This document shows positions 51,653 to 55,373 of a stretch of 64,000 nt of DNA, piece after piece (position 1 is the stretch's first letter; each line of letters begins with the position of its first letter). Below the pieces are notes generated by a model. The model ran no database searches. It was not told the origin of the DNA and saw only the letters and a list, made by a program, of their open reading frames with translations. The translations under genes and the position numbers were made by a program. This stretch comes from Bugula neritina. Taxonomy: Eukaryota > Bryozoa > Gymnolaemata > Cheilostomatida > Bugulidae. The stretch covers positions 12,533,722 to 12,597,721 of the forward strand of contig OZ037766.1 in NCBI GenBank assembly GCA_964035545.1, written 5' to 3'.

Positions 51653-54600
51653 TTACTGTGCCATTTCGTCTTGAGGGCCTCGTTTTACTAGAGTAACAAA
51701 TGCATCGTAATCGAACAGTCCACCATGTGGCTTGGCCTCTTTCCACACTTGTCTAATCTCTTCTTCTTTGAACTGGTCACCAACATTCAATAGAAGATCT
51801 TTTACACTGTAAAATGAAATATCAAAATACTCAAGTGCTTCCCGCTGTCTAACAATTTTGTATACTATCAGAGAGCTTAATATTGATTTAATTTGGGTAA
51901 ATATAAATGCATAAAAAAAGAAATTCTATGTTTCAAAAAATCTGTACCATTTGCTTTATGTAAAGTCAAATAATATACTTTAAGAAATTTTGTTTTCCTA
52001 AACTGTAAAAACGTGTTGTATTTTCCATATGCACTAAACAGTCTACAAGTTAAAATCAGTAAGGCTACAGCTTATCAACAAACAGAAAGTACAACAGGTG
52101 ACAGAAAACCTTTGTATGCTGCTTTATGGATCAAAGTTACAACAATTATAATAAACCAATTAGCTTAAAATACAATGAGTTAACTTTTTATTTTTATAAT
52201 GTATGTTAGGAGTTATTGCAAATTTAAAAGCATTTGACCGAAAAAAGACTTTTATAGGTGTGAGAGCAAATTCATGGTTATATTCGCTATGAAAACCATT
52301 GCCCTTGAGTATGCCAGTGTTTGCTGCTGCAATATACTCACTATTCTTCAGATAACTTTCCTTTCTTTTCAGGGTCAAACTGTTCGAAAGCCTGTCTAAA
52401 TGTAGTTTCAGAATCAGTGCCTAAAATTGAGGAAAAAAATTTTCTACATAAAAACCAAACACACTAACAGCTGAATAGTTGTAGGTGATGCACCATAGAA
52501 AATTTGATGCTTTTATAATATATCGTTACCGTGCATTTTCTCTCCAAATAGTGTTAAAAATGCAGTAAAGTTGAGTTGACCAGGACATTCCTTTAGCATT
52601 TCATTGAGGTCTTTGTCTGAGGGGTTACGGCCAAGGTCGTTGTGGATTGCTTTCAAATCAGAAACATCAATGAAGCCATCTCTGTTTACATCCATCATCC
52701 CAAAAGCCTAAAATTTCAAATACAAACTTTAATTTTGTTTTTTCAATGCTATATATATAGGATATAATTTAGAATTCATTTATATAAAATTTATTACAAA
52801 TGTTATGCTTATTCAATTATATGGAATCAATAGAGAAAGTGAAATATTGATCACAATATACTAGGTATGTGTTGATCAAATGGGTTAATTAAAAATTGGA
52901 AACGTTACAGCACATGCAAAGTTCACAAACTCTAAGGAAACAGGGTCACTCAAAGTCTAAAAGTGTACATGCCACTTTATGTGTATTTGTTTATGTGTCA
53001 TCTGATTTATCTTTTTTTATTAAGTAATCTCCAAATCTTCAAATTATTTAAAAAATTGAGGTGGATCTACTGTTATGGCTATAATCACACTGTTGCTACA
53101 TAAAAATAAAGTTTAGTAGTGAAGGATAAATGAAACTAACATGCTAGCTAGGTTACAGAAAGTCTAGTTCAAACAATCTGTCATTGCTCAACCTCCTTAA
53201 ATTCTTGAATTTGATTCTGATTTAAAACTGCGAAAACATTAGAAGTAGTTCTTTGTGCCCTTTTAGGTTCTTTATCTTCTGCAGCAGCAGCAGCAGCAGG
53301 TGCAGGCTCTGCTTTCCGTGTTCTTCTATTAACTCTCTGTAATTTATTTAATGACATACAAAATATATGGGTAAACAGGGAAAGCATACAAGAACTGCAG
53401 GGTGCTTGTTATTGGTATGTGCAATAGCGGTTGCATCAGAGCCAGGGAGGGGTGCAAACTCAGCCAGCTGTTGTCTTGTCTTTTGTCTGTTGACACAAGT
53501 CTACTCAAGGGAGCAGAAATTATAAGATAGCTAGCAGCAGCATACCAATAGAATGAGAAACACATAAGGTGAATAATAAAGTCTAGCATGGCAGCAATTG
53601 AAATAAGGCTGCCCGGTTCGAAAGCAGGCTGGAGGGCAAACTTCAGCAAACCTCTTTAAATTCTTGTATTTGTGCTTGGGGAAACATTCCCAAGATATTG
53701 GTAGTTCCTTTCCTAGCCTTTTTCTGTAAACATTTGGTGTCAACTAATATTATAATTACAAATGTGTATCCATGCATTGTAGATAAGTGAGACAGAGACG
53801 ACTAAGGAGCAGTGCTCCGTAACATCCGTAGCAAGATAAACAGATAGTGGGTTGGACATTAAGCAAAGGTCTGTTTAGGTAATTTATACTCAAGTGTTGG
53901 GGGGTTTTTGGCTTCCCATACATAAAGGAATATTTGTGTAAGGCTTGCACATTGGTTATGTTTTCAAACCTCTTTAAACTCCTGGATTTGACTTTGAGGA
54001 AACATTCCCAAAACATTTCCAGATTTTCTAGCTGCCTTCTATAATTATGGATGAAATGGAGCATTTTAATATTGAAATATCGGTACTAGATTAAAATGGC
54101 AACATACTAAATTGTGTAAAACTATAGCATTATTCTAAGATTGAAATTTGGAAAAATAATTTCATGAAGAGTGCCTTGTTCGTGTAGCATTCTGCTATAG
54201 ATTGCAAAGCTCTACAATCTACATTATAGAATACAGGTATCTTATCTACAACAGTTATTGTAGAAATAATTAGGGATAGTGTATACACTAATCTAATTAT
54301 AATGCATATCCTACTAACCATCAAAATCCTGCATCTAAGCTTATGGCATCCTGCATATATGCAGAATTATAACAATATAACCTGCATGCTTAGTCTCAAC
54401 TCATGAATATAAGGCCAGTAATTGATTAGCCTGTGCTACCACATTATAGTTAGATTACAATATACTGAGAAAGTTATCAATGAGTATAGACATACTGCTA
54501 ATTTCTGTTTCTCCGAATTCTGCAATAACATAAATAATTTACTAAGTATGTTAGAATTAGTATGCAGGCATCTAGGCTCAAACAGCTGATAATTTGAAAA

Positions 54601-55373
54601 GCTTTCATGAATTTGAAAGTATATGCAGAAACTTAAAATACACATTTATTTACTTTATGAGACTTGAGAGCCGTGGTTTAGAAATGTTTCATTAGTATTT
54701 CGTATAGAAAAAAGTGATATGCATTTATTTTGTATACAAATCTGTCCTTGGTGTGGCTCATGTAATATACGTTTGTGCTTGTGCTTAATTTTCAGGCTAT
54801 AGCTGTTAATTTCCATCAAACGGGTTAGACTATGTAAATATCAATATTAGCTTAATATTTTCTAGCCAAAGCAATGTATGGACCAAAATATTGTAAAAAA
54901 AAAATCAGATTTCTATGTTATAGAATATAGAGAATGCATTGAATGCAGTGCTAAGCTACATGTTGAATTAGATATACCTGGTCAACTTATTGTTAGTAAA
55001 AACAGATGGTTAATGAAAAAATTCACCAAAAGTTTGTTCTAATATACACAGAATGAAAACGCCATAAGAGAAAATGGTTTATAACAAAAGCATAGGTATA
55101 TCAACTGAACGCATTGTAAGAAATTTGCCAGAGCATATGTGCTAACATAGGATATTATATCTTATCATATTGAATTATAGTAGGCTACAGCTGTTTATGA
55201 TTCTTAGGCCATGTTACTGGGACGCTACACCAGCCCCCCTACCCTTCTACCTATCACACTGATTTATAATATAGCAAACATTTCAATGCTCTGTAAAAAA
55301 ATATATACTAAAATTAGCAAAACTTTTAATGTTTGTATAATAAAATTTTAGGTTTACTTACATCTTCTGCCAT
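51653..55373 (-). CDS. Myosin II regulatory light chain with three alternative N-terminal exons
   Basis: Minus-strand coding exons: 55373-55362 (MAED), one of three alternative exons (54038-53970, 53723-53652 or 53336-53193), then common exons 52707-52530, 52420-52342 and 51806-51653. Predicted products are 163, 164 or 188 aa (human MYL9/MYL12 about 172). Common exon 1 gives EF-hand 1 with the loop DVNRDGFIDVSD, followed by LNFTAFLTLFGEKMHG, diagnostic of regulatory light chains. The C-lobe has FDPEKKGKLSEEY and KEAKPHGGLFDYDAF. The protein binds the IQ2 motif of myosin II heavy chain; phosphorylation of its N-terminus by MLCK or ROCK activates contraction. A non-coding first exon ends at 56278 (donor G|GTAAGT) and splices to the acceptor TTTTTTGTAG before 55378. 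All junction phases were checked and agree. Confidence 0.92.
53193..53336 (-). other. Alternative RLC exon C (long, canonical Thr-Ser phosphosite)
   Basis: 144 nt, phase 0-0, acceptor AATTACAG and donor GAG|GTTGAG. It encodes 48 residues: a basic start, an Ala-rich linker (APAAAAAAE), then KRAQRTTSNVFAVL and QIQEFKE. It preserves the canonical RxTSNVF kinase target of non-muscle/smooth-muscle RLC. Confidence 0.88.
53652..53723 (-). other. Alternative RLC exon B (Thr-Thr phosphosite)
   Basis: 72 nt, phase 0-0, acceptor TTTACAG and donor GAG|GTTTGC. It encodes 24 residues containing RKGTTNILGMF and ending QIQEFKE. Both phosphorylatable positions are Thr. It is closest to exon A in sequence. 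Confidence 0.85.
53970..54038 (-). other. Alternative RLC exon A (Ser-Gly phosphosite)
   Basis: 69 nt, phase 0-0, acceptor ATTATAG and donor GAG|GTTTGA. It encodes 23 residues containing RKSGNVLGMF and ending QIQEFKE. At the position of human Thr18-Ser19 it has Ser-Gly, so the principal Ser19-equivalent is absent. Confidence 0.85.

Follow-up and report, generated by a model that had tools for sequence, protein, structure and literature searches.

How do the muscles of invertebrates combine thin-filament, direct-calcium and light-chain-kinase control? To our knowledge this is an open matter. Phosphorylation of the myosin regulatory light chain (RLC) at Thr18/Ser19 activates myosin II, and a locus of the bryozoan Bugula neritina, in a window of 64,000 nucleotides (the whole stretch of DNA that was analysed), raises the question of whether an animal can set the kinase response of its motors at the level of splicing. 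Our preferred answer, to which we assign a probability of about 0.7, is that the locus holds a striated-type RLC gene whose second coding exon, the one for the phosphorylation segment, is present in triplicate as a tandem array, one copy being picked at a time; the bryozoan can probably set by splicing the response of its muscle motors to kinases.

Read on the minus strand, the gene consists, in order, of the MAED exon, A, B, C and three common exons (Table 1). The alternative exons encode KAARKSGNVLGMFPQSQIQEFKE (A, 23 residues), KKARKGTTNILGMFPQAQIQEFKE (B, 24 residues) and RVNRRTRKAEPAPAAAAAAEDKEPKRAQRTTSNVFAVLNQNQIQEFKE (C, 48 residues). The initial annotation had described all three as bounded by intact splice sites in phase 0-0, as encoding the N-terminal RLC segment with its QIQEFKE end, and as feeding one shared downstream EF-hand exon; the re-checked coordinates, lengths and phases agree, as do the AG acceptors, the GT donors and the translations, and the locus has a single downstream body. 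Its account of the kinase site also holds: aligned on the vertebrate numbering Thr18-Ser19, the site reads Ser-Gly in A, Thr-Thr in B and Thr-Ser in C.

Table 1. Exons and the candidate control region of the window gene (positions in the window), and the alternative exons of its paralog.
Feature	Position	Strand	Splice sites and other support
First exon, coding part (MAED)	55362..55373	-	donor GTAAGT
Candidate exon NSEKQKLA, 24 nt, phase 0, between first exon and A	54496..54519	-	good splice sites
Alternative exon A, 69 nt, Ser-Gly at kinase site	53970..54038	-	donor GTTTGA; profile match
Alternative exon B, 72 nt, Thr-Thr at kinase site	53652..53723	-	donor GTTTGC; profile match
Alternative exon C, 144 nt, canonical RTTSNVF kinase motif	53193..53336	-	donor GTTGAG; profile match
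Intron from C to first EF-hand exon, candidate splicing-control region, three GCATG (one of them TGCATG)	52708..53192	-	motif counts
Common exon with EF-hand 1 (AFGMMDVNRDGFID...)	52530..52707	-	splice sites, Pfam
Common exon (TDSETTFRQAFEQFDPEKKGKLSEEY)	52342..52420	-	splice sites
Common last coding exon, DEMAQ-stop end	51653..51806	-	splice sites
Paralog exon alpha2, 153 nt, 51 residues, SKVKG...KKSSTNIFSMFDRAQIEELKE	L021:3075-3227		AG...GT, phase 0
Paralog exon B2, 78 nt, 26 residues, QKGKAQRATTNVLGMFPQSQLQEFKE	L021:2660-2737		AG...GT, phase 0
Paralog exon C2, 117 nt, 39 residues, KANRKKMAAAESDEPKRAQRTTSNVFAFFNQTQIQELKE	L021:2407-2523		AG...GT, phase 0

The encoded protein is a myosin II RLC: it has an EF-hand body with the first cation site and matches solved RLCs over the full length. 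Isoforms A and C both passed the cut-off for Pfam EF-hand_7 and EF-hand_6, and the best PDB matches are scallop RLCs, with E values of 1.1e-52 for isoform C and 5.8e-50 for isoform A. The main homolog searches listed the best 120 of 1432 and the best 120 of 1109 proteins; 149 homologs were retrieved in all, and 146 of these could be split between KE and AF, 10 being bryozoan-type and 136 others. A peptide resembling that of the 24-nt candidate exon occurs within the first 40 residues of 0/149 homologs, 10 of which are bryozoan-type rows with N-terminus. One homolog, P0006 ('mlc-4 [Bugula neritina]'), is identical to the encoded body over 132 residues; as returned it begins at MDVNRDG, inside the first EF-hand, and therefore comes without every N-terminal exon described here.

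Are all three alternative exons real? An 18-residue profile was made of 136 rows, which contain 44 distinct RLC N-termini and from which the bryozoan-type rows were excluded. In six frames of the 64-kb window, three matches exceeded 0 bits: C (63.5 bits), A (56.5 bits) and B (44.5 bits), each carrying a donor and an in-frame acceptor. The best scores in 12 first-order Markov sequences of equal length were -7.7 to -17.3 bits. A chance origin of A, B and C is ruled out by this comparison of only three window matches with a strongly negative null. Divergence among the exons is mostly synonymous, with uncorrected pN/pS values of 0.22-0.36 over 18 codons and few sites (9.8-10.0 synonymous): A and B differ with pS 0.66, pN 0.15 and pN/pS 0.22, and B and C with pS 0.70 and pN 0.25, all uncorrected and each on about 10 synonymous sites. 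The three are tandem homologous exons in the same phase and between the same neighbours, which is the arrangement of a mutually exclusive cluster, and a second case is present in the paralog.

Four clear RLC genes emerged from a protein search of the same genome, two of them with an exon triplet, and both triplet genes have an intron between EFKE and AF. The triplet of the paralog is located on a different contig from the window gene, at L021:2407-3227, equivalent to C1:27095906-27096726 of the genome, and the first exon of that gene reads MAEG. C2 corresponds to C: 14 of the last 18 residues agree, RAQRTTSNVFA is common to both, and pN/pS is 0.13. B2 resembles B and A equally (15/18 each; pN/pS 0.12 between B and B2), and alpha2 has no clear counterpart in the window (9/18 against A, 11/18 against B and 7/18 against C). 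Alpha2 also carries KKSSTNIFSMFD, a type absent from the window gene. Unlike the triplet genes, the RLC genes C4 and C5, of presumed smooth/non-muscle type, have a single N-terminus, with one profile match each in 8.0 and 6.7 kb of sequence that is continuous with the EF-hand and no intron at the corresponding junction. The nearest PDB structures to the first exon of C5 are MYL9 and MYL12B, and the PDB rankings of the window gene and of C5 point to the window gene being a striated-type RLC. A paralog with its own tandem N-terminal triplet, the last exon of which matches C, is new here and suggests that the triplet arrangement was kept through a gene duplication.

Relatives of the window gene provide a view of how its exons are joined. 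Among the nine closest bodies (P0001-P0009; from the best 120 of 1432 and 1109), eight have an N-terminus, and KSGNVLGMFPQ is found in six of these eight (P0002, P0003, P0004, P0005, P0007 and P0009); A-type was assigned by this string itself, so that its presence in all six is no independent test of constraint. MAED precedes the A-type segment in P0002, P0005, P0007 and P0009, P0004 has MAEE followed by the A-type, and P0003 is A-type and begins at MARK. P0001, from Watersipora subatra and labelled isoform X2, consists of MAED and a segment identical to exon B at 24/24 residues; P0008 is B-like (KGGTNVL); and P0010 and P0012 (W. subatra, another isoform X2) are B2-like. Exactly one segment is present in each of the 10 bryozoan-type rows with N-terminus (P0001-P0005, P0007-P0010 and P0012), none of which comes from B. 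neritina and none of which has C. No single named species among the retrieved relatives showed both A and B. We infer that the bryozoan-type rows other than those of Watersipora are spliced sequence, as short contigs read as one open frame. That relatives appear to join the first exon to the A-type segment or to B, one at a time, is also new here, and the predicted alternative use of A and B is well supported by these relatives.

Two segments in one protein occur, among all 149 homologs, in P0148 and P0149 only, and a query with C residues 1-52 singled out the same two rows and a weak third, P0028, from 35 candidates. In P0148 the B-like KKAKKGTNILGMFPQAQLQEFKE, 91 residues and the C-like RVNRRSKKTADTASTEEKEPRRAQRTTSNVFAVFNQSQIQEFKE follow one another in one open frame; P0149 is likewise an open frame with a B-like and then a C-like segment. 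P0148 and P0149, seen as protein frames alone, would represent unspliced DNA, P0148 with the B-then-C order of the window in another species and with the 91 residues corresponding to an intron. Comparison of C with P0148 shows that RAQRTTSNVFAV is conserved and that the linker is not (PAPAAAAAAED vs TADTASTEE); the Ala-rich linker of C was considered as a functional feature and rejected for this lack of conservation in P0148. Two further rows deserve mention. P0126, which is not bryozoan-type and has a body 63% identical, carries the A-like segment RKSKNVLGMFPQ, a hint that A-type segments may be older than bryozoans. P0022, an animal-type RLC sharing 64% identity with isoform C, is filed as a Clostridium perfringens hypothetical protein, the likeliest explanation being that host sequence contaminated a bacterial assembly.

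The difference at the kinase site recurs from gene to gene. The smooth-muscle kinase motif RXXSXBB, in the form given in PMC2674065, is present in C, C2, the C-like segment of P0148 and the C4 and C5 genes, and absent from A, B, alpha2 and B2; within each triplet, only the last exon (C or C2) keeps it. A Thr form of the site, with Lys or Arg at -3, survives in B, B2 and alpha2; A has neither. In B, Thr replaces Ser19 and Lys occupies -3; in A, Gly replaces Ser19. The motif is found in 0/10 bryozoan-type rows and in 85 of the 136 other splittable homologs; as the remaining 51 are without it, absence of the motif alone is common and not special to switched N-termini.

Several other explanations of the triplet have to be weighed against exon choice for kinase gating. 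Exons A, B and C could be pieces of separate genes, or starts from separate promoters, rather than internal alternative exons; the arrangement is known here from DNA and from relatives' sequences alone, which leaves some room for such a view. It is nevertheless very improbable: all three exons have acceptors and the locus has one body; no start codon stands ahead of the kinase site, the sole Met of A and of B coming after it (LGMF) and C having no Met; and MAED precedes both the A-type and B in relatives. The proviso of the initial annotation that A and B might belong to separate genes or be pseudoexons can be dismissed on the same body and MAED evidence together with the splice sites and the profile matches. 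It is also conceivable, if improbable, that not all of the exons are functional; C, for instance, might be rarely used or dying, which would leave a gene with two effective states, A and B. A transcript-like row with C was found neither among the best 120 of 1432 and 1109 proteins nor in a search limited to the N-terminus, and a C-containing row would be expected to rank first with the full C isoform as query, so that its absence counts against use of C. Against a dying C, a C-like exon is kept both in the paralog, at the similarity and pN/pS given above, and in P0148, the splice sites of C are intact, and retention of RTTSNVF would not be expected in a dying exon; on grounds of conservation, the predicted use of C is supported.

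A further alternative, which we consider rather unlikely but not negligible, accepts that exon choice is real and places its purpose outside phosphorylation: the length or charge of the N-terminus (23, 24 or 48 residues) would tune thick-filament packing or actin binding, which are the roles proposed for the N-terminal extensions of insects, and the kinase-site changes would be incidental. C is indeed twice as long as A and B, and C2 (39 residues) is longer than B2 (26 residues); LGMFPQ differs from FAVLNQ or FAFFNQ outside the kinase site as well; and the 51/136 other homologs that lack RXXSXBB have no known switching. N-terminal extensions are common in invertebrate RLCs according to PMC2674065. 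What speaks against length or charge as the purpose is that the linker of C varies where RAQRTTSNVFAV is conserved; that the longest paralog exon is alpha2, which lacks RXXSXBB, length being no mark of the canonical exon; and that the scallop pair discussed below differs in the RXXSXBB motif as well. Kinase gating is the likely function of the exon choice, judged by the encoded peptides. The proposal of the initial annotation, that exclusive splicing yields motors of different kinase responsiveness, is strengthened in part: one gene, three constrained exons, A and B found singly in relatives and a recurring kinase-site difference all favour it, and the responsiveness itself stands as a prediction.

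None of the known devices that enforce exclusivity (frame, steric block, spliceosome type, RNA pairing) was found to apply. The lengths of all alternative exons are multiples of three, and frame does not enforce exclusivity, as had been pointed out before. The introns between alternative exons measure 246 and 315 nt in the window gene and 337 and 136 nt in the paralog, all GT-AG; introns of 136-337 nt are too long for a simple steric block. Pairing between introns was tried as an exclusivity device and rejected, the duplex energies of nine pairings having z values of -1.1 to 1.1 against 30 simulated pairs each in a coarse whole-intron calculation. A blastn comparison with 7-base words gave no conserved intron block between the paralogs below E 0.04 among the matches listed. 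Because neither frame nor intron length provides exclusivity, control would likely rest on weak donors of the alternative exons together with trans-acting factors. Matches to GTRAGT number 3 (A), 3 (B), 2 (C), 3 (alpha2), 4 (B2) and 3 (C2) of 6 at the alternative exons, and 6, 4, 6, 6 and 5 of 6 at five common exons.

A candidate trans-acting factor comes from the introns that follow the last exon of each triplet. GCATG is the core of the Rbfox site, and Rbfox sites downstream of an exon usually favour its inclusion; C would therefore be the Rbfox-dependent form. GCATG occurs three times in the intron after C (485 nt) and five times in the intron after C2 (735 nt), and these eight occurrences, in an exploratory test for which six motif patterns had been counted beforehand, compare with 1.74 expected from dinucleotide shuffles (0/1000 reach 8) and with 1.16 expected from the window density (Poisson P 3e-5). 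In the nine remaining introns of the test, 4537 nt in all, GCATG occurs 3 times against 4.68 expected. The longer TGCATG is significant in gene 2, the paralog (4 seen vs 0.78 expected), and not in gene 1, the window gene (1 seen vs 0.14 expected, P 0.14). A scan of all hexamers returned others that are about equally skewed, such as ATGACA, with 4 in the two post-C introns together and 0 elsewhere. Totals of ACTAAY and of the YGCY-like pattern are near expectation in both genes; TCTT is below expectation in gene 1 (7 vs 13.6) and CELF-like motifs are somewhat above it in gene 2 (7 vs 4.0), both being otherwise near expectation, and the factor names attached to the counted motifs, CELF-like among them, are presumed.

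The preferred reading, one of three tandem phosphorylation segments picked at a time, can be put as a mechanism. Splicing would be mutually exclusive and controlled by cell type, and an Rbfox-type protein bound to GCATG downstream of C would perhaps promote C. Myosin containing C would be switched on by kinases of the myosin-light-chain-kinase type; B, with Thr for Ser19 and Lys at -3, would be a poorer or a different kinase substrate; and A, with Gly for Ser19 and hence without the main site, would rely on thin-filament or direct calcium control, the A-type myosin probably being poorly activated by kinase. The three myosins would differ solely in the switch segment, and a body that stays identical while its N-terminus is kinase-ready or kinase-poor offers a natural and clean comparison.

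The nearest precedent is found in scallops. The PDB chains 3pn7_B and 2os8_B are identical at 132/132 printed body residues and differ only before the junction of KE and AF, where one has RATSNVF and the other KAASGVL. Their muscle and species labels, beyond the title 'Myosin regulatory light chain', and their match to the two isoforms of a recent review are our assumption. That review (PMC12040844, 2025) reports two RLC isoforms in scallop catch muscle, one of which is catch-specific and phosphorylatable and has an unknown role, and it cites Morita and Kondo 1982 for the isoform work. The statement of the initial annotation that it knew of no such arrangement in this gene family was too strong, given a scallop pair that shares 132 body residues and swaps the segment, and given the isoforms in PMC12040844. 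The window gene is like the scallop catch and striated RLC isoforms in that one body, on the window side by conceptual splicing, is combined with alternative N-terminal segments that either have or lack the phosphorylation motif; scallop, however, has two states known at the protein level, whereas the bryozoan has three tandem exons, two paralogs and a change of Ser19 to Gly (A) or Thr (B). As a separate observation, 2os8_B and 1b7t_Y have the last 18 N-terminal residues in common and 21/132 body differences, the first 12 of them within positions 3-23; these may reflect different species or a further swapped exon.

Among the homologs, 90 pairs, which are not independent of one another, have a body identity of 95% or more, and 88 of them agree at 16-18 of 18 N-terminal residues. 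In the two exceptions, P0046/P0137 (8/18) and P0025/P0053 (12/18), RATSNVF or RGTSNVF gives way to a segment in which position 19 is Ile. Their bodies have 2 and 3 differences in 133, and one member of each pair is without Ser19. These pairs are possibly a second lineage with the same switch; that alternative splicing would produce it there is a guess. In the open-access literature searched, we found no RLC gene described with N-terminal exons in tandem, with three states of them or with the layout in two paralogs; the older scallop work is mostly in subscription journals. A wider reading, which we put forward tentatively and think possible though less than probable, is that control of a phosphorylation switch by splicing goes far back in striated-type RLC genes, among lophotrochozoans or marine animals more widely: a cell would pick kinase-gated or kinase-independent myosin by exon, the scallop catch isoform would be one outcome, bryozoans would have expanded the switch to three states in two paralogs, and an Rbfox-type protein would select the kinase-gated exon.

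Other known systems share single aspects of the triplet. The smooth and non-muscle RLCs (MYL9, MYL12), like C4 and C5, belong to the same family and have the same kinase motif as C, but differ in having a single N-terminus. Tarantula, as described in PMC2674065, has two RLCs whose N-terminal phosphorylation sites differ, a likeness to the bryozoan; the tarantula RLCs are 56% identical and so have different bodies, however, in contrast to the one body of the bryozoan isoforms. The muscle myosin heavy chain gene contains clusters of mutually exclusive exons (PMC3912159), and there, as proposed for the window gene, tandem homologous exons of one gene are picked to change motor properties by muscle type; heavy chain clusters alter the motor itself, whereas the bryozoan triplet would alter the phosphorylation segment of the light chain. 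The triplet is a variation on known things, mutually exclusive exon clusters on the one hand and the scallop RLC isoforms on the other, and the tandem-exon layout is the part for which the open-access literature searched gave no description.
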